Notes under the pieces: generated by a model
Told to the model about the DNA's origin: nothing
Databases searched by the model: none
The model's input: the letters and a program-made list of their open reading frames with translations, nothing else
Virus record (IMG/VR): IMGVR_UViG_3300044482_000112
Location: 1-30,306 of that record
Reading direction: 5' to 3' (one strand)
Length of the DNA stretch: 30,306 nucleotides
Source of the DNA: a virus
Shown here: piece after piece, positions 3,405 through 30,306 of the stretch
Numbering within the stretch: position 1 is the first letter of the stretch
Layout of the letters: every line of letters starts with the position of its first letter
Made by a program: the position numbers and the translations under genes

Positions 3405-3967
3405 TACCAGGTAACCTCGTTAATCGCCGCGATCTTGTCGACGTCGGCCATGCCAGCATCGGCGGCGATGTCCTGCACCTGGGCTGCCAGCGTAGCGTTT
3501 TGCTCCAGGGCTGCGGTGATGGCCGCCTTGCCATCGACACCGGCCTGCTGGATCTGCGCGGCGGTGTGCGGGCGAAACGCCCAGGCGCCGGCGGCGTCGC
3601 GACACCAGAACGGCGTCACCCAGTCGGCGGGAAGGCCAGGCACCAGCGAGGCGGTCACAGAGGCGACCATGTTGGCCTGGTCCTGCTCCTGAGCAGGATA
3701 GTGGTACATAGCGCCGAGCGCGGCGGAATCGTATCCGTCGACGATCTGCGCCCGGCAGGCGGCGGACAACTCGGCGACCTTCGTCGCGGCCACGTTGGCG
3801 GCGCTCGGCTGCGGCTTGCTGAACGTCACACCGTCGAACACGTCGCCCACTGTCACCGTGTCTGGCGCATCAATGAACTCGGCCTGAATGTGCGGCGGAA
3901 ACAGCGCCAGCTTTGCAGCGGGCAGAACCTTCGCCACCTTGCCATCAACGATGCGTGCCTTGATCAT
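3404..3967 (-). CDS. Tail-fibre-associated protein, DUF4376-like (187 aa)
   Basis: The start at 3967 overlaps the stop of the upstream tail gene by ATGA. The N-terminal half (MIKARIVDGKVAKVLPAAKL) resembles small tail-fibre accessory proteins. The middle has an Ala-rich helical stretch with YDSAALGAMYHYPAQEQDQANM, followed by WVTPFWCRDAAGAWAFRPHT and a helical tail. This is the usual arrangement of DUF4376-type proteins that follow fibre genes in siphophages and myophages. It probably has a role in the fibre or its assembly. The frame remains open upstream to 4111, but that part overlaps the previous gene and has no ribosome site. Confidence 0.65.
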   Translation of the reverse strand: MIKARIVDGKVAKVLPAAKLALFPPHIQAEFIDAPDTVTVGDVFDGVTFSKPQPSAANVAATKVAELSAACRAQIVDGYDSAALGAMYHYPAQEQDQANMVASVTASLVPGLPADWVTPFWCRDAAGAWAFRPHTAAQIQQAGVDGKAAITAALEQNATLAAQVQDIAADAGMADVDKIAAINEVTW

Positions 3968-4890: not shown

Positions 4891-6702
4891 TTAAGTCGTC
4901 AGATATTGTGGCTCACCAGGCGACCAGTCTGTGCCGTCTGATGCGAACCCATACGCTTCTTTTTCAGCAGCGCTGGCGCTGCCGTAATTCGGCGTCCCGG
5001 CCGGCGCGATGAATGCGTAACGCTTCCCGATATAGATATTGGCTTGGGCGACATAGTCATAGCGATGTCCAGGCTCGCGCTCCATCGCTTCCAGTACCTG
5101 CACCGACTGCGGCTCGTTGGCGCCGGTGATGCCTTGAAACATGCGCGTGTTCATCACGGCGAATGCGCCAGTCCAGATGCTGGTATCGCGCGCATCCAGG
5201 CTGAACTTCATCTGGCGCGGGGTATGACGCAGGCGATTGAGCAGGCGACCGGCCAGGGTTACGACCAGGCCCTGCGTATCAATCCAGTCGGCGTAAATGA
5301 CGCGCACCGACTTTTCGTCGTAGGCGTTGGCGCCTTCCGTGTCGCCATCGGACTGGATGTGCAGGCTGGCATAATTCTCCGGCTTGTCATCGCCGGTGAT
5401 GTCGATCTTGTTGTAATGCACCCACACCTGACTGATGCGCTCGGCCGGTTCGTCCTTGATGGCGATGGAGTCCGCGAGCAGGTGTGAATCGTCGGTGAGT
5501 GTTGGCGGCGCGGCGTTTTTTAGGTTCGGCGCGATGGCCTTGAGCTTGACCTCCTGGTCAATCTCGTTCCACCACAGGAGCAGCATGTTCTGCTCAATCA
5601 CGGCCCCCAGCAGCTCATTGATGCCCGTCGGCTTGGTGATGATGTGCGTCAGGGTGTTTGTCGATAGCCAGTTCGTTTTCTCGTCGTCCCACTCGTCGTC
5701 GGTGCCGGTGGGCGTGGTGCGGCCAGCATCGTAGGGGATGTAGGCCTCGGCCAGGCCGGCGTAGGTCTTGAGCAGGTCATCTATGATGTCGACCACGTTC
5801 ACCGCGTTGTAATACAGGCACTGCTGCACGCCGTCGTCGATGGCGGCGTCGTCGTCGGTGCTGCCGAACTGGCCGCCGACCACGCCGGTGAGGGTGTCGG
5901 TGCTGACGCCGGTGTACTTGAGGACGTTGTCGCCGATGCGCACGTAGCCGGGCACGCTTCCGCTGATGGCGCTTCCGGTGTAGGGGTCGGTGTCGTAGTC
6001 GGCTCCCTCGCCCGTCTGCAACACCAGGGTGGTGCTGACGCCGGCGGTGTAGGCGGCGCTGAGGGTGCCGCTGCTGGGCGCCGGGGCCTGGGCGCGCTTG
6101 TCGTCGGCCAGGGCGAGGATGTCCTTGCCCTTGATGGTGACCGTGCCCTTGCTGTCCGGGCCGTCGATGGCGTCGATGACGTAGACGCGGGACTCGAAGT
6201 TGTCCCAGGAGAAGGTGTCGGTCAGATAGCCGACGCGCAGGCGCATCAGGCGGCCCTTGTAGTATGGGTTGCGCGCCTTGAGCTTGCCGAAGAACGTGCC
6301 CTGGCTGCCGGGGTCGTAGCTGCGCGTGCTGATGTAGGGGTCCATGCCGCGGTCGTGGTGCGGGAAGTCCTGCAGCTTGATGCTGATCGCCCCACGCCAG
6401 CCGAGGCCCTTGTTCGGCGTGATGCGAGTCGGTGCGATCGACGGCTCGCCGACCATGCAGGGAAATCCATCGATGCCTATGGGTAGGTCTGAGCGCGGAG
6501 GGAAAAAGCGCATGGTCTGCGTAGTTCTGCTGTAATTGGCCGGGTCCTGGCAGGTCTTATAGGTGTTGTAGCACTCGCTTCCTGAGCTACCGCTCGCCGT
6601 GCAGGGAGCGACGCCGTAGGTGTTGGCGCAGGTGTCGAGATCCAGCTCCAGCGCCACTATCGGGCGGCGGCCGACGACAAGCTTTTGAGCGGCGTAGGTC
6701 AT
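4891..6702 (-). CDS. Baseplate hub / distal tail protein (603 aa)
   Basis: A large tail-tip protein. The N-terminus is Cys-rich (CANTYGVAPC, then ECYNTYKTC), as in a conserved siphophage tail protein family that reads 'LDTCANTYG...C' near its start. A further segment (residues about 60-210) resembles hub domains that hold the end of the tail tube. The middle has a Gly/Thr-rich insert, followed by helical and mixed regions that may make the central ring. Four genes after the tape measure, it fits a hub or central tail protein that joins tube and fibres. Its start overlaps the end of the upstream gene by ATGA (6702/6699). There is no peptidase motif that I can see. Confidence 0.68.
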   Translation of the reverse strand: MTYAAQKLVVGRRPIVALELDLDTCANTYGVAPCTASGSSGSECYNTYKTCQDPANYSRTTQTMRFFPPRSDLPIGIDGFPCMVGEPSIAPTRITPNKGLGWRGAISIKLQDFPHHDRGMDPYISTRSYDPGSQGTFFGKLKARNPYYKGRLMRLRVGYLTDTFSWDNFESRVYVIDAIDGPDSKGTVTIKGKDILALADDKRAQAPAPSSGTLSAAYTAGVSTTLVLQTGEGADYDTDPYTGSAISGSVPGYVRIGDNVLKYTGVSTDTLTGVVGGQFGSTDDDAAIDDGVQQCLYYNAVNVVDIIDDLLKTYAGLAEAYIPYDAGRTTPTGTDDEWDDEKTNWLSTNTLTHIITKPTGINELLGAVIEQNMLLLWWNEIDQEVKLKAIAPNLKNAAPPTLTDDSHLLADSIAIKDEPAERISQVWVHYNKIDITGDDKPENYASLHIQSDGDTEGANAYDEKSVRVIYADWIDTQGLVVTLAGRLLNRLRHTPRQMKFSLDARDTSIWTGAFAVMNTRMFQGITGANEPQSVQVLEAMEREPGHRYDYVAQANIYIGKRYAFIAPAGTPNYGSASAAEKEAYGFASDGTDWSPGEPQYLTT

Positions 6703-9655: not shown

Positions 9656-9666
9656 GTGCGTCTCGA

Positions 9667-10269
9667 TCAGGTGAATGCTTTTTCTGGCGCCCACCCGTAA
9701 ACACGGATGCGCTTCCATATCAGCTTGTAAGGTAGATGCAGAATTTCTGCCCACTCCGCGAGACTCTTTCGCTCGCCGTTAAAGTCAACATGAAATGTGC
9801 TGCGACGGTTTCGCGCCTGCTCTTTGTTTGTGGCCCATCGGCAGTTTTCTGGTTCGTAGCCTTTGTCGTTATTGATGCGCTCAATGGAAAACCCGGGGCC
9901 TGGGCATGCTCCCATGTCACGAATGAATTCCTCGAAATTCATCCATCTTTGGCAAATTTTGATCCCTCTGCCTGCGTACGATTTATAGCGATTGCTGGAT
10001 TCTCGCGTGCATCTTGCGACCATCCCTGCCCAAACCCGATACTCTCGCGTATCAGACAATCCATGAATTGCCGTAGACTCGAATCGACGACATCCACAGG
10101 ATGTTGACGCACCCATAGTCAGGGCATTCGTAGCTATATCGGCCTGTTTTCCGCACTCGCAACGACACAGCCATAACGCCTGGCGGTGCCTGTTTACTCC
10201 AGCGCGCTTGACGACCGTCCATCGGCCGAAGCGCATTCCAGAGATATCTTTGTGGCGCGGCGCCATCAT
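9667..10269 (-). CDS. HNH homing-type endonuclease inserted in the tail operon (200 aa)
   Basis: A free-standing HNH-family nuclease. The N-terminus has a zinc-binding cluster (CRCECGK near 33 and SCGCRR near 57). The core ends with the characteristic FSIERINNDKGYEPENCRWA and KEQARNRR of phage HNH endonucleases. The C-terminal about 40 residues (FNGERKSLAEWAEILHLPY then WAPEKAFT) are a DNA-binding helix-turn-helix repeat typical of these proteins. Base composition is more AT-rich than the flanking tail genes. It separates the tail tube from its chaperones, an unusual place for a structural gene but a common landing site for selfish nucleases. Its start overlaps the tube stop by ATGA. Confidence 0.88.
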   Translation of the reverse strand: MMAPRHKDISGMRFGRWTVVKRAGVNRHRQALWLCRCECGKQADIATNALTMGASTSCGCRRFESTAIHGLSDTREYRVWAGMVARCTRESSNRYKSYAGRGIKICQRWMNFEEFIRDMGACPGPGFSIERINNDKGYEPENCRWATNKEQARNRRSTFHVDFNGERKSLAEWAEILHLPYKLIWKRIRVYGWAPEKAFT

Positions 10270-17016: not shown

Positions 17017-18666
17017 TCAGGCCTCCATCACGTTCTGCGGCATGCCGGTCGGGCGGTCGCCGTTGTTGTCGCCTTCTTCGTCTTCTGTCTCATCGACGAT
17101 GGGCGCGGGTGCGGGCGCGGGCTGCGCACCTAGGCCGGCCTCCTTGCGCATGCGGCGCTCCCGGGTGAGCTGGCGGTGTTTCTGTTCCCAATCGCCGCCG
17201 GTGAGTTCGGCGGTGTTTTCCGTGCCGGTCTTCCAGCCGCGGTCTTCCATCAGCGCGGCGGCCTGGGCTTCCTTCATCGGGTCCAGCGCGCCGGGCGCGT
17301 CGCCGACCCATTCGCTGCCCAGGTAGGCGTGGCGGATGGCCGGGTCTTGCAGGAACCCGGGGGCGCTGATGCGTCCCATGGCCACGGCCTCGGTGAGCCA
17401 CATCTCGTAGACCGGACGGCACAGCGCATCGGCCAACCAGAAGCGGCGGGCCTTGAAGAACTTCCACGCCTGGAGCAAGGCGGCACGGGCTGCGCTGTAG
17501 CTGGACTGGAAGTGCATGATCAGAACTTCGAACGGCAGCTCCAGGGCTACGCCGATCTGGCGCAGAATGGCCTGCACGAACGGGTCAAACGCCTGATTGG
17601 GGCGACCGGGGTTGGCGGTCTCGATGGCCTCGTTATCAGCCAGTCCGACGATGGCGCCGGCGCCCATCTTGATGGACTGCTGATCGGCGCGACCGCTATC
17701 GTTCACGTCCGTTGTGAGCCCAGGGAACGGACCATCGCCGTCCGTGGTTTTGATGAACACGGTGAACAGGCCGGAGACCACGGCGGCGGTCAACTCGGCC
17801 TCGGTGTAGTCGCCAAGCTGCTTGAGCGCGGAGATAACGGGAGCGAGATCCGGCACGCCGCGTGATTGCCCGATGCGTATTTGCCGATACAAGTGGAGCA
17901 CATTGCGTCGGCCGGATTGGGTGAACGCCGGAACCTTGGTCCAGCTCATTCCCTTGGCTCCGCGGCGCAACGCGCCCGGGTGCTGATCAAGGAAGTGGTA
18001 CGTCTTCGGCGCACCGGCGGCATCCTTCTCCACGCCACCGGCAAGCGTTTCCGTGTCGGCGACGCGTTTTTCGTTGCAGCAGCGGTCGGCCTCGATGAGC
18101 TGGACGGCAAGCTGATAGACAACACCGGGGCGATCGACGAAGACAGGCAAAGCGAAGGCGTCGCCATTCTCCAGCACGGAGCGGAACGATAGTTCCTGCA
18201 AGCCGTAAAAGTTCAGGGTGCGCCCGGCGTCGCAGTCGGGCGACTCGGCCCACATGCGGAACTCGCGCTCAACGTTGCGCTGCCAGGCCTCGGCCTGTTC
18301 TTCCGAAAGGCCGAGGAAGTCGCGGTCAATGGCGGACTTGAGGGCCAGGCCGGTGCCGACGACGTTGACCACCTTGGTGTTGATCGCGCCGGTGGCCAGC
18401 GGGTTGTTGCGGATCAGGTCGCGGCTGCGCTCGCGCAGGGACGGGAGATCGAACAGGGTGTCGGCGTCGGCGTCGCCGGCGCTGGTGGCCCAGTCGCCGA
18501 ACTGGCGCTTGCTGCGGGAGGCGCCGGTGTAGGCGCCGGCCAGGGCCAGCTGCACGCGGCTCTGGTGGCGGCGCAACGCCCGCTCCGGGGAGAGGATGGC
18601 GATGGCCTTGTCCAGCAGATTCGGCTGGACCGATTGCAGCGCCTTACGGACGGTGGCCCGGCTCAT
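17017..18666 (-). CDS. Portal protein, lambda gpB family (549 aa)
   Basis: Forms the dodecameric DNA entry ring at one vertex. Recognisable blocks are SKRQFGDWATSAGDADADTL, LRERSRDLIRNNPLATGAIN, NVVGTGLALKSAIDRDFLGL, the central ALPVFVDRPGVVYQLAVQLI, GRRNVLHLYRQIRIGQSRGV, and the C-terminal helix with LPFEVLIMHFQSSYSAARAA, typical of the lambda portal family. The C-terminus is charged and disordered (VDETEDEEGDNNGD). It overlaps the gpW-like stop by ATGA and is followed 2 bp later by the protease. Confidence 0.93.
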   Translation of the reverse strand: MSRATVRKALQSVQPNLLDKAIAILSPERALRRHQSRVQLALAGAYTGASRSKRQFGDWATSAGDADADTLFDLPSLRERSRDLIRNNPLATGAINTKVVNVVGTGLALKSAIDRDFLGLSEEQAEAWQRNVEREFRMWAESPDCDAGRTLNFYGLQELSFRSVLENGDAFALPVFVDRPGVVYQLAVQLIEADRCCNEKRVADTETLAGGVEKDAAGAPKTYHFLDQHPGALRRGAKGMSWTKVPAFTQSGRRNVLHLYRQIRIGQSRGVPDLAPVISALKQLGDYTEAELTAAVVSGLFTVFIKTTDGDGPFPGLTTDVNDSGRADQQSIKMGAGAIVGLADNEAIETANPGRPNQAFDPFVQAILRQIGVALELPFEVLIMHFQSSYSAARAALLQAWKFFKARRFWLADALCRPVYEMWLTEAVAMGRISAPGFLQDPAIRHAYLGSEWVGDAPGALDPMKEAQAAALMEDRGWKTGTENTAELTGGDWEQKHRQLTRERRMRKEAGLGAQPAPAPAPIVDETEDEEGDNNGDRPTGMPQNVMEA

Positions 18667-27690: not shown

Positions 27691-27912
27691 TTATCCGCCG
27701 CGCGCCGATGCACAATGGCATTCGCGCCCTTCTCCAGGGGCGCCAGACAGCTTCCCAAGGCGCAGCGCTGCACCCATGACTAAATCCGCCTGTTTCTGCG
27801 TCAAAAGCTCCGGCCATTGCGAAATACGTCCAGCAGACAGCCCAACCGCCCGAGCCAACCCGGCCTGGGTATCAAACAATGCAACAGCCGATTTTTTGGT
27901 CATGGCGCTCAT
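27691..27912 (-). CDS. YdaS/Cro-like helix-turn-helix protein (73 aa)
   Basis: A small DNA-binding protein with an early-helix-turn-helix FDTQAGLARAVGLSAGRISQ followed by WPELLTQKQADLVMGAALRL, the YdaS/Cro pattern. It diverges from the repressor gene and is first in the leftward early transcript, so it should repress the lysogenic promoter and permit lytic development. The -10 of its promoter ends about 10 bp before the ATG at 27912, so the message would be nearly leaderless; ATG 27903 is another possible start. The C-terminus is basic and probably disordered. Confidence 0.78.
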   Translation of the reverse strand: MSAMTKKSAVALFDTQAGLARAVGLSAGRISQWPELLTQKQADLVMGAALRLGKLSGAPGEGRECHCASARGG

Positions 27913-27921
27913 GGGGACTTA

Positions 27922-27950
27922 TGTTTAGCGATCTGAACAAACGATGTCAA
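27922..27950 (-). promoter_or_regulatory. Early leftward promoter with operator over the -10
   Basis: On the minus strand, TTGACA (27950-27945), a 17-bp spacer and TAAACA (27927-27922). An operator-like dyad GTTCAG-ATCG-CTAAAC lies at 27938-27923 over spacer and -10. Binding of the repressor there would block the early operon. Confidence 0.8.
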
Positions 27951-27969
27951 GCCTAATAAACAATAAAAT

Positions 27970-27985
27970 GTTTAGACTGCTAACC
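27970..27985. promoter_or_regulatory. Second operator-like dyad at the repressor start
   Basis: GTTTAG-ACTG-CTAACC is the same dyad with one arm mismatch. It directly abuts the repressor ATG (27986), and a TAAAAT -10-like sequence is at 27964-27969. It could bind repressor or the Cro-like protein to control the repressor gene. Confidence 0.65.
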
Positions 27986-28369
27986 ATGACAACCCTGCAA
28001 GACCGCATCAGGCAAGCCCTCGAAGTGGCAGGGATAAAGCCGATAGAGCTGGCGAAGCGCGCGCGCGTGAGCCGGGCTACGGTATCGCTTTGGGTAAACG
28101 GACCAACGCAAAAGCTGGAAGGGGAAAATCTAACGCGAGCCGCCGCTGCGCTTGGCGTAGACGCGCACTGGCTGGCGACAGGGGACGGAAATATTAAATC
28201 CGGCGTATCGGAGTCCCGCGCCAGCTACGGGTCAGAGGACGAACGCCGACTGATCAACGAATACAGGGCGCTGGGATATGATGACAAACGCCGTATTCTG
28301 GCCATAATGAACGCCCTGACCGACTTGGCCGCCTCAAAGCGTCAGGACACACCACCGCAAGGGAGATAG
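27986..28369 (+). CDS. Short CI-like repressor (127 aa)
   Basis: A helix-turn-helix repressor. Residues 1-65 form an HTH_3 domain (IKPIELAKRARVSRATVSLW) followed by helices (LTRAAAALGVDAHWLATGDG). The remaining about 55 residues are a charged helix with no S24/LexA self-cleavage motif, so induction by RecA cleavage is not expected. Longer starts from 27944 lie inside the operator region, so ATG 27986 is preferred, but no ribosome site precedes it and the transcript may be leaderless. The overlap with the membrane gene downstream (stop 28367, next start 28372) suggests they are cotranscribed in the lysogen. Confidence 0.8.
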   Translation: MTTLQDRIRQALEVAGIKPIELAKRARVSRATVSLWVNGPTQKLEGENLTRAAAALGVDAHWLATGDGNIKSGVSESRASYGSEDERRLINEYRALGYDDKRRILAIMNALTDLAASKRQDTPPQGR

Positions 28370-28371
28370 CG

Positions 28372-28890
28372 ATGAGCAAAAAAAGCGTTCCACTGGCCGC
28401 CATTCTGGCAATTTTGTTAGGCCCGATCGGGCTACTGTATGCCAGCATCACTGGCGGCCTCGTGCTGATCGGTGCCGGTCTTGTCTCGGGCATTATTCTC
28501 GGCAACCACGCCATCATCGGCGGCATGATCATCTGGCTGATCTCCATTGGCTGGGCGTTCATGGCCGCTGGCGCGGCCAATGCCGAAGCCGCCATCGCCG
28601 AAAACGACGCAGGCAACGACAGCGACTGGCAGGCACTCGCCAAATACGACCCGGACGCCAAGGAGGCCATTGAAATCGTCGCACCACTCGGAGACGGTGC
28701 AGTAAATGAGCTGTATCGCGCCCACCGCGCTATGAAAGACCCCAAGAAACTCCCCCAGGTCGCGGCACAGATCGCCGAAGAACACAAAGCGGCGGCCACG
28801 TCCAACGACGGCACCAGACGCTGCCCGAACTGCAAAACGGCCACCACCGCCGCCGTCTGCCCAGACTGCAACACCTGGATCGGCGCCTAA
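28372..28890 (+). CDS. Membrane protein with C-terminal zinc ribbon (172 aa)
   Basis: A GGGAGA site precedes the start, 3 bp from the repressor stop. Residues 1-80 have two or three hydrophobic segments (PLAAILAILLGPIGLLYASI, GGLVLIGAGLVSGIILG, GGMIIWLISIGWAFMAA), with LGPIGLLYASITGG resembling a bacterial small-membrane-protein family. A cytosolic helical region follows, and the end is a CPNC...CPDC zinc ribbon. It is expressed with the repressor in lysogens and ends at a strong terminator, so it could exclude superinfecting phage or sense membrane damage. That role is inferred from position. Confidence 0.65.
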   Translation: MSKKSVPLAAILAILLGPIGLLYASITGGLVLIGAGLVSGIILGNHAIIGGMIIWLISIGWAFMAAGAANAEAAIAENDAGNDSDWQALAKYDPDAKEAIEIVAPLGDGAVNELYRAHRAMKDPKKLPQVAAQIAEEHKAAATSNDGTRRCPNCKTATTAAVCPDCNTWIGA

Positions 28891-28908: not shown

Positions 28909-28934
28909 CAAAGCCCGCTTCGGCGGGCTTTTTT
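28909..28934 (+). terminator. Terminator of the repressor operon
   Basis: AAAGCCCGC-TTCG-GCGGGCTTT with a UUCG-type loop and a T6 run, 20 bp after the stop of the membrane/zinc-ribbon gene. Confidence 0.93.
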
Positions 28935-28956
28935 ACGCTCGCGATGTTTAGTCTTC

Positions 28957-28985
28957 TTGACACTTCTTGTTCACCCTGCTAAACA
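28957..28985 (+). promoter_or_regulatory. Rightward promoter of the DGR target operon, with operator
   Basis: TTGACA, 17-bp spacer, TAAACA, with a dyad GTTCAC-CCTG-CTAAAC (28969-28984) over the -10. It is a near-copy of the early leftward promoter: both have TTGACA, TTGTTCA in the spacer and GCTAAACATA at the -10. Another GTTTAG half-site is at 28946-28951. Confidence 0.8.
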
Positions 28986-29038
28986 TATGCCCCATCGCCA
29001 CCCCTCACCGCCAACCGGGCCGTGATGGTTACGAACCC

Positions 29039-29070: not shown

Positions 29071-29751
29071 ATGCCGCATGCCTTCATCACGGTCCCAGAG
29101 ACCACGCTACCGAACGGCACGGTTGTGCCGAAATTCCAGGTCGGCCAGTACGCCTGCTCGCGCGACACCGATGGTCAGCTGGCCATCACCGCCTCCGGCA
29201 CGCCCTGGGTGCGCATCAACTACCACGAGGCGCGCGCGGCCTGCGAAGCCGCCGGGTTCCGCCTCATCACCGAATTGCAATGGTTGGCCATCGCGCACAA
29301 CGCCGCCCAGCAGGACTGCAACTGGACGAAAGGCGAGGTCGGCAAGGGCAAGCTGTTCCGCGGCATCCGCAAGGGCCTTGTCAGCAGCGCGCAGCCTGGC
29401 AGCTACGAGCCTGAGGACGCCAAGGAGCGCCGCTGGCTGACGCTCTCCAACGGCGAGCGCATCTGCGACATGAACGGCAATGTTTACTCCTGGGTCTTCG
29501 ACGATGTGCAGGGCGATGAAAACGGCGTCGTTGCAAAGGCATTCGCCGACGATTCGCCGTCCATCACCGCACCCTTCCCCTCCATCAAGAAGGGCATGGG
29601 CTGGCGCCCTGGCAGCGGCGCCAACTGGTCTGGCAATGCGCTCCTGCGGGGCGGCTACTGGTACTCGGAGTCCTATGCCGGCGTCTTCTGCCTCAACAAC
29701 GACGGGCCCGGCTTCGAGTACGACTACGTCGGCTTCCGCTGCACCAAGTAA
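29071..29751 (+). CDS. DGR variable target protein, C-type-lectin/FGE fold (226 aa)
   Basis: Residues about 20-226 form a formylglycine-generating-enzyme/C-type-lectin fold: WVRINYHEARAACEAAGFRL, ITELQWLAIA, ICDMNGNVYSWVFDD and the C-terminal LLRGGYWYSES ... VGFRCTK. The end has the layout of a diversity-generating retroelement target. An invariant AGVFCLNN lies between two clusters of residues likely to be varied (Y196, Y198, S199-Y202; D211, G212, G214-Y219), and GFRC closes the protein. Many of these codons are NNC with Tyr, Ser, Asp, Gly and Phe, as adenine mutagenesis of AAC would give. It has no signal peptide or membrane segment. The promoter and palindrome above control it; the fold is sure, the DGR role very likely. 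Confidence 0.88.
   Translation: MPHAFITVPETTLPNGTVVPKFQVGQYACSRDTDGQLAITASGTPWVRINYHEARAACEAAGFRLITELQWLAIAHNAAQQDCNWTKGEVGKGKLFRGIRKGLVSSAQPGSYEPEDAKERRWLTLSNGERICDMNGNVYSWVFDDVQGDENGVVAKAFADDSPSITAPFPSIKKGMGWRPGSGANWSGNALLRGGYWYSESYAGVFCLNNDGPGFEYDYVGFRCTK
29647..29748 (+). other. Predicted DGR variable region (VR)
   Basis: The 3' end of the target gene, from the CGGGGC (Arg-Gly) codons at 29647 to the GC-rich GGCTTCCGCTGC, which ends at 29745 and resembles the initiation-of-homing element of known DGRs. Boundaries are estimated; an exact definition needs the template repeat, which is not in the window. Confidence 0.7.
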
Positions 29752-29841: not shown

Positions 29842-30219
29842 ATGACAACCACCACTGACCCAGTTTCCCAGGAAACGCCTGACCTGAACGACGCCGAAGC
29901 CCTGTTCCTGGACGTCTGGAAAGCCGGCGTTCAGGTAGCTGGTGCCGGCCTGTTCGGCTGCCAGGTAGCCCACCCGCGGGACGCCACCCATTGGCGCCAG
30001 CTCACGCCGAAGCTGGACGTGATGCGTCGCGAACTGCCGAACCGCGGCCAGGTGGACGCCGTCTTCGCTGCCGCCATGGCCAGCTTCTTCAACCCCGAGG
30101 AGGGGCAAAAGCTGATGGTCAAAGCCGGCTGCCACGGCTTCGGCGGCATCGCCGTCATTCTCGACGCCCGCCGGCGCGCGCTCCTCGCCTGCCTGCTGGC
30201 CAACTTCCGGGGGTGGTGA
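29842..30219 (+). CDS. Unknown protein following the DGR target (125 aa)
   Basis: GGGAGG precedes the start. The protein is largely helical: NDAEALFLDVWKAGVQVAGA, ATHWRQLTPKLDVMRRELPN, QVDAVFAAAMASFFNPEEGQ and ARRRALLACLLANF. Its length is close to Avd-type DGR accessory proteins, which are small four-helix bundles, but I see no clear sequence match, and the basic charge typical of Avd is not evident. It could be an Avd analogue or an unrelated early phage protein. It lies in the same operon as the target, 90 bp after it. Confidence 0.55.
   Translation: MTTTTDPVSQETPDLNDAEALFLDVWKAGVQVAGAGLFGCQVAHPRDATHWRQLTPKLDVMRRELPNRGQVDAVFAAAMASFFNPEEGQKLMVKAGCHGFGGIAVILDARRRALLACLLANFRGW
29863..29876. 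promoter_or_regulatory. Palindrome copy 6 (GTTTC-CCAG-GAAAC)
   Basis: Within codons 8-12 of the 125-aa gene (Val-Ser-Gln-Glu-Thr), 22 bp after its ATG. The arms are perfect. Confidence 0.55.
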
Positions 30220-30221
30220 TC

Positions 30222-30306
30222 ATGGAGCATCAATGCCAAGCACGCACCCGCGCCGACACTCGCTGCCGCTGCCACGGCTCCGAGCGCGTCCGCGTCCTGT
30301 ATACGG
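30222..30306 (+). CDS. Start of a Cys-rich protein (partial)
   Basis: The frame opens 2 bp after the previous stop and runs off the window. The 28 visible residues start MEHQCQARTRADTRCRCHGS, a Cys/Arg-rich pattern that suggests a small zinc-binding N-terminus. No upstream Shine-Dalgarno of its own is needed if coupled; GGGGG lies 10 bp upstream. Function cannot be given from this piece. Confidence 0.5.
   Translation, partial: MEHQCQARTRADTRCRCHGSERVRVLYT

Follow-up and report, generated by a model that had tools for sequence, protein, structure and literature searches.

A probable early, repressor-controlled target protein of a diversity-generating retroelement in a lambda-like prophage

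The window analyzed here is the whole of the IMG/VR record IMGVR_UViG_3300044482_000112 (30,306 b), and it appears to represent an integrated lambda-like siphophage. Its left end is probable host DNA with a gene for a PilB-like ATPase (197 to 1942), followed by leftward tail, head, portal, and terminase genes together with a primase/helicase and then by a cro-like gene, from which the cI gene, a gene for a zinc-ribbon membrane protein, and the gene of interest, VP1, diverge. The PilB-like ATPase was rejected as a means of naming the host, its identity to genes of five hosts of relatives being only about 35 to 48% over most of its length, and no tRNA gene was found in the window. The features of the region around VP1, a variable (target) protein of a diversity-generating retroelement (DGR), are as follows.

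27691 to 27912, minus strand: Cro/DicC-like small HTH protein, divergent from cI (NCBIfam DicC-like, E 5e-4, under the curated cut-off)
27921 to 27940, plus strand: putative operator copy at the cro-like promoter (word search)
27968 to 27987, plus strand: putative operator copy upstream of cI (ATGTTTAGACTGCTAACCAT; word search, inverted repeat)
27986 to 28369, plus strand: CI-like repressor (HTH_3/Phage_CI_repr), ORF open from 27944, likely start ATG 27986
28372 to 28890, plus strand: membrane protein with a zinc-ribbon tail, between cI and the terminator (sequence, weak DZR match)
28910 to 28935, plus strand: intrinsic terminator between the cI transcript and VP1 (stem AAAGCCCGCTTCGGCGGGCTTT and a T run)
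28944 to 28963, plus strand: putative operator copy (ATGTTTAG...) running into the -35 of the VP1 promoter (word search)
28957 to 28985, plus strand: VP1 promoter, TTGACA-17-TAAACA (sequence; twin of the cro-like promoter)
28967 to 28986, minus strand: putative operator copy covering the -10 of the VP1 promoter (word search)
29071 to 29751, plus strand: VP1, DGR variable protein of 226 aa with a single FGE-type C-lectin domain (ORF, Pfam, PHROG, AlphaFold, PDB fold matches)
29627 to 29748, plus strand: variable repeat (VR) of VP1 with the IMH at its 3' end (about 29734 to 29748), by alignment to the TR at 3860 to 3981 of contig L037
29773 to 29812, plus strand: GC-rich hairpin downstream of the VR, where DGRs have their homing hairpin (-27.0 kcal/mol for the best local fold)
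29842 to 30219, plus strand: ORF of 125 aa downstream of VP1

The tail operon of the window spans 2.5 to 24 kb and has fibre genes of its own, and no VR was found in it; a candidate second VR at 17079, a 35-b match of only 80% lying antisense in the portal region, was judged to be due to chance. The gene order thus bears out the initial annotation, made from the sequence without database searches, which had put VP1 next to the repressor, away from the tail operon. For the 125-aa ORF downstream of VP1, no relatives were found in viral contigs or by profile and domain searches.

VP1 matches the Pfam FGE-sulfatase profile (E 3e-9) and phrog_2889 (E 5.6e-36), "FGE" being used here as the Pfam name and for the fold, with no claim of FGE enzyme function. 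An AlphaFold model built from 55 family sequences reached a pLDDT of 97.3, and its top structural matches included three DGR variable proteins, namely, TaqVP (Z 17.6, 3.2 Å, 209 residues; the closest solved fold), TvpA (Z 15.7, 3.3 Å, 176 residues), and Mtd (Z 14.8, 3.3 Å, 158 residues), plus true FGE enzymes (Z about 15). Searching the PDB by sequence with the VP returned weak FGE matches only, and the viral matches obtained with Foldseek include many tail collar fibres. The model thus assigns to VP1 an FGE-subtype C-lectin fold with a C-terminal VR. No signal peptide or transmembrane segment was seen in a hydropathy scan of 112 family VPs, a single one of which exceeded a Kyte-Doolittle value of 1.6 over a 19-residue window; the N-terminal extensions of family VPs are unlike signal peptides, the commonest being a domain of about 75 aa that also occurs in phrog_9572. 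Furthermore, Pfam and PHROG searches found no tail-attachment domain in the 226 aa of VP1.

A search of the 30,306 b confirmed that neither a reverse transcriptase (RT) nor a TR lies within the window, which ends 555 b after VP1. However, the last 123 b of the window (30184 to 30306) are identical to the first 123 b of another public contig, IMGVR_UViG_3300044482_000111 (L037), in a suffix-to-prefix arrangement. Given this overlap, L037 very probably continues the window to the right; the two were compared as separate contigs, linked by the end overlap and not joined. The genes of interest on L037 are listed below.

L037, 1291 to 1974, same strand as the DGR genes: VP2, further variable protein, same TR
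L037, 2050 to 2913, same strand: VP3, further variable protein, same TR
L037, 2985 to 3836, same strand: Avd-type protein (profiles and fold match)
L037, 3860 to 3981, same strand: TR of 122 b (alignment to the VP1 VR)
L037, ending at 5122, same strand: DGR-type RT (RVT_1, PHROG, motifs)
L037, 5149 to 6897: ParB-like protein, after the RT

The TR, the Avd-type protein, and the RT are therefore situated about 4 to 5 kb to the right of VP1. DGR-type RTs carry the motif (I/L/V)GxxxSQ, and the translation of the L037 RT, which matches RVT_1 (E 2e-23) and phrog_1423 (2e-101), contains IGNLSSQ and YVDD. Thus, the RT and the adenine-specific TR that the initial annotation had expected to the right of position 30306 were found by way of L037. 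In the Avd-type protein, the part related to Avd is C-terminal: the bAvd and DivGenRetAVD profiles fall on residues 190 to 277, below cut-off, with values of 6e-6 for NF033474 and 4e-4 for PF22296 (both under the curated cut-offs), and phrog_3206 (Avd) matches at 6e-4. The fold resembles that of BPP-1 Avd with Z 14.5 to 15.1, a level at which matches between helical bundles can be unspecific, and here position and profiles agree with it; a PDB sequence search with the Avd alignment gave nothing relevant. The model of this protein is poor (pLDDT 68.5), and its helical part fills the list returned by the structural aligner. In L037 and 11 homologues, the protein has about 283 aa, and the Avd fold is confined to the last 110 residues or so. 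The N-terminal 170 residues or so gave weak Foldseek matches to MutS (E 0.08 to 0.5 over 76 to 114 columns), which we set aside as a lead only.

It could be argued that the window and L037 are different phages with a common 123-b stretch, as they are two separate public contigs with a short overlap. We regard this as the least probable of the alternatives considered here: the overlap is exact and runs end to end, the GC content is 0.62 in the window and 0.63 in L037, strand and order are as in related phages, and among 39 TRs, that of L037 is by far the best for the VP1 VR, with a non-A mismatch of 1/96 compared to 5/94 for the next best.

Comparison of the VP1 VR with the L037 TR revealed, upstream of the IMH, 8 differences, all at TR adenines (7 A to T and 1 A to G), and none at other bases, which means that 8 of the 23 adenine sites in this part are changed. 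Over the whole repeat, mismatches affect 9 of the 26 adenines and 1 of the 96 other bases, one of each belonging to the IMH/IMH* marker, a 2-base difference (TGACCC in the TR and TGCACC in the VR); with a Fisher p of 2e-6, a chance origin of the pattern is excluded. The altered residues, in seven codons (196, 198, 202, 212, 215, 217, and 219), are N or E in the TR and Y, F, or G in VP1. Moreover, upstream of the IMH, the VR departs from the TR at no base other than A, while the DNA identity of the gene body to its sister VP2 is only 74%; the VR has thus been overwritten from the TR recently. The initial annotation had located a variable region in the last 35 residues: this region is real but longer than claimed, as the TR alignment covers 29627 to 29748, and the GFRC said to close it is present but belongs to the IMH end. 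Its "invariant" AGVFCLNN holds in part, with A203, G204, F206, and L208 conserved in at least 90% of 55 VPs, whereas the two asparagines (residues 209 and 210; TR codons AAC AAC) are targetable, being unaltered in VP1 and altered in sister copies. A hairpin is found 15 to 35 b downstream of nearly every family VR examined, with differing stem sequences.

The limited number of altered adenine sites in VP1, and the fact that seven of the eight changes are A to T, would suit a relic, that is, an FGE-like gene with a VR no longer diversified. We consider this very improbable in view of the identity of the VR to the TR at non-A bases next to a diverged gene body, and of the intact IMH, hairpin, and RT motifs. 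The adenine specificity, together with the Pfam, PHROG, and fold matches, instead upholds the original proposal of a prophage-borne DGR target with an FGE/C-lectin fold, and on the sequence evidence, it is as good as shown that the ORF at 29071 to 29751 is such a target.

VP1 has relatives at about 65 viral and 14 genomic loci, with 54 to 72% identity; the latter were retrieved by a genome scan with an alignment as the query (14 loci, versus 0 with a single VP), and tblastn detected no VP in deposited phage genomes. The order VP(s)-Avd-TR-RT, on one strand, occurs in most loci with enough downstream DNA, and no Avd, TR, or RT was found within 10 kb downstream of the VP in L027, L045, L056, L077, L080, and L086. 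Over the family (about 80 VP/TR pairs), 1,382 of 2,290 TR adenines are altered versus 104 of 7,417 other bases, 79 of these 104 being C, mostly the IMH marker. The DGRs of the family appear to be active, since in three pairs of near-identical phages (L041/L042, L062/L087, and L067/L075), the VP bodies show 0 differences over 493 to 553 b, while the last 125 b differ by 8 to 20 b. VP loci were present in 1 of 399 genomes of the order to which the Aromatoleum host belongs, and the cultured lysogens that carry them are Aromatoleum toluclasticum, Methylotenera oryzisoli, Thauera butanivorans, Solimicrobium silvestre, and Pseudoduganella rivuli.

Some loci of the family showed peculiar arrangements. 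One metagenome-assembled genome (Rhodocyclaceae BROCD002) contains two VP loci, L026 and L027. In L027, neither an RT nor a TR was found in the 10 kb downstream of its two VPs; as one of these is almost the same as a VP of L026, where both RT and TR are present, diversification in trans is possible. L045 (a 41.5-kb record) and L056 are phage records with a VP gene in which no RT was found. In three large DGR records, behind L005, L008, and L011, a second, more distant RT lies on the other strand (G005:70583, G008:21587, and G011:43614). An Avd gene and TR are apparently duplicated in tandem in L066 (8500 to 10545), and the RT frame appears to be split near its start in L022/L036 and L031, which may reflect decay or a late true start.

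In the window, VP1 is the first gene after the terminator and its own promoter, and L001 and L002 have terminators in the corresponding position. The VP1 and cro-like promoters share the arrangement TTGACA-17-TAAACA, with an operator half-site over each -10, and are paired by a 49-nt inverted repeat (27914 to 27962 and 28945 to 28993; 71%). The word ATGTTTAG has 4 copies in the 30-kb window, two between cro and cI, two at the VP1 promoter, and none elsewhere, against 0.2 expected, and none of 100 shuffles contained as many. The shared operators overlap the -35 and -10 of the VP1 promoter, as they do at early promoters of the lambda PL/PR type.

This arrangement recurs in related loci. The repeated operator word is GTAACNATNGTTAC in L001 and CACCATTTGGTG in L002, and blastn against upstream DNA detected a twin of the VP1 promoter in L024, L039, L041, L042, L046, L049, L065, and L078, each twin lying between divergent genes, CI-like on the right and YdaS/Cro-like on the left (the flanking genes submitted to Pfam gave S24 peptidase or HTH, and YdaS). 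In L024, the Methylotenera oryzisoli locus, the repressor is of the S24 type and the putative operator is located at 9666 to 9695; DNA damage would be expected to release the VP there. In 11 of 11 loci, selected for a recognizable VP1 promoter, none of the 183 to 981 control windows per locus matched this promoter as well as the cro-cI region did. The operator sequences mostly differ among the 11 loci, which amount to about 9 independent ones, as L039/L042 and L046/L065 have an operator type in common. Since the operators change together across loci, repressor control of the VP1 promoter through these putative operators is strongly supported. No twin was found for the promoter-like sequence in L028 and L056/L092 or, in the regions tested, upstream of VP2 or VP3, and the first VP of L022 and of L057 lies kilobases into the operon.

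The same evidence bears on the three roles that the initial annotation had left side by side for VP1, namely, an early product, a lysogenic product, or a separate virion protein: it favours the first, under repressor control, makes the second less likely, and leaves some room for the third. A lysogenic-conversion product made in the lysogen, such as a surface or superinfection-exclusion protein, would fit a gene that adjoins cI on the same strand. Nevertheless, we deem it improbable, because a terminator separates the two genes, operators covering the -35 and -10 as at the cro-like gene predict silence in the lysogen, and neither a signal peptide nor a transmembrane segment was seen.

The position of the family leads to a similar picture. 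An integrase or its arm-binding domain follows the RT at about 5 to 6 kb or less in six loci (L024, L025, L029, L032, L035, and L041), and the neighbourhood of family DGR loci contains genes for ParB, HNH, YqaJ, RNase T, RdgC, or C5 methylase. With the lambda PL operon as the reference for early-region placement, the VP-to-RT block is, by analogy, in the place of that operon and not of the tail genes. Hence, judging from sequence and gene order, VP1 is most likely an early, repressor-controlled gene between repressor and integrase and not a tail gene. We hold it to be highly probable that VP1 is diversified by a DGR and subject to repressor-type control, whatever its partner.

The sequence evidence points to a full set of DGR components within the early region of this lambda-like prophage, with one TR serving VP1, VP2, and VP3. 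In DGRs, Avd, the IMH, and the hairpin have roles in the transfer from TR to VR. By comparison with known DGR biology, the RT and Avd would copy the TR RNA with errors at adenines, and the cDNA would replace the VR up to the IMH and hairpin, rewriting up to 14 codons of the C-lectin binding face. The phage repressor would silence VP1 in the lysogen and release it on infection or induction, and the same repression would probably span the operon through the RT towards the integrase. VP1 would then be an early, soluble product, and its promoter, its position, and the lack of export signals suggest that it acts early inside the cell.

Early transcription of VP1 does not imply an early function, as the protein could be stored and packaged. 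VP1 to VP3 may be virion proteins, for receptor binding or decoration, whose genes lie outside the tail operon and which would serve a classical tropism-switching DGR. This is consistent with the fold common to VP1 and Mtd, with the tail collar fibres among the Foldseek matches, with a survey in which viral DGR targets are mostly tail proteins (PMC8144416), and with P2-like ACA phages, where the antireceptor is a separate polypeptide (PMC10612066). We find it rather unlikely, given the absence of a detected tail-attachment domain, the placement of the family between repressor and integrase with recombination and ParB genes, the early repressor-type promoter, and a tail operon equipped with VR-less fibre genes. 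An intracellular or cell-associated partner, that is, a host or rival-phage factor involved in counter-defence, host takeover, or superinfection control, seems to us more likely than a receptor-binding role in the virion, at a little under an even chance. More tentatively, we propose that a widespread family of proteobacterial temperate phages employs its DGR, in place of tail tropism switching, to vary a group of two or three intracellular binding proteins expressed early under repressor control. These would amount to a hypermutating arsenal for counter-defence or host takeover, kept silent in the lysogen.

Phage DGRs have been read almost entirely as tropism switches. The DGR of Bordetella phage BPP-1 (Mtd, Avd, and bRT) shares with the present one the order VR-IMH-hairpin, TR, Avd, and RT, the adenine-specific changes, and an FGE-type C-lectin target. 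However, the BPP-1 target is a tail protein and a trimer, whereas here, three single-VR targets lie outside the tail operon with a repressor-type promoter; the long N-terminal extension of the Avd-type protein also differs from BPP-1. The Thermus aquaticus prophage DGR has in common a single-domain FGE-type VP (TaqVP), the order VP-avd-TR-rt, and the prophage setting, but it has one VP instead of three, and the accessible text of its report does not state a promoter or immunity context (PMC6328139). The DiGReF survey of 2012 lists multi-VR DGRs in Ralstonia, Burkholderia, Collimonas, Sideroxydans, and Pseudogulbenkiania and names FGE-sulfatase paralogs for Marichromatium (PMC3521204). Its multi-VR DGRs, which can be likened to the VP family by description, likewise combine one RT with two to four paralogous targets and are in many cases from Betaproteobacteria, but the entries are bacterial, prophage association could not be demonstrated there, and in the accessible text, promoter control is not described (PMC3521204). 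In the temperate hankyphage, silencing of the CI-like repressor RepCHP induces DGR activity; however, the target is a tail fibre, and control concerns the whole lytic program, with no operator pair shown at the target's own promoter (PMC12135933). In the large survey mentioned above, the viral DGRs of clades 1, 4, and 6 have mostly tail proteins as targets, and nonstructural targets are mentioned as well (PMC8144416). In the open literature searched, we found no report of DGR targets under phage immunity-region operators.

The novelty lies in how the gene is controlled, with a VP promoter that is the twin of the cro-like one in the immunity region. Compared with the systems above, a family of small, soluble C-lectin targets between repressor and integrase, including the first target under putative immunity-switch operators, would indicate that hypermutation in some phages is directed at a product made as infection begins, and what the non-tail viral DGR targets bind becomes testable in named cultured lysogens.
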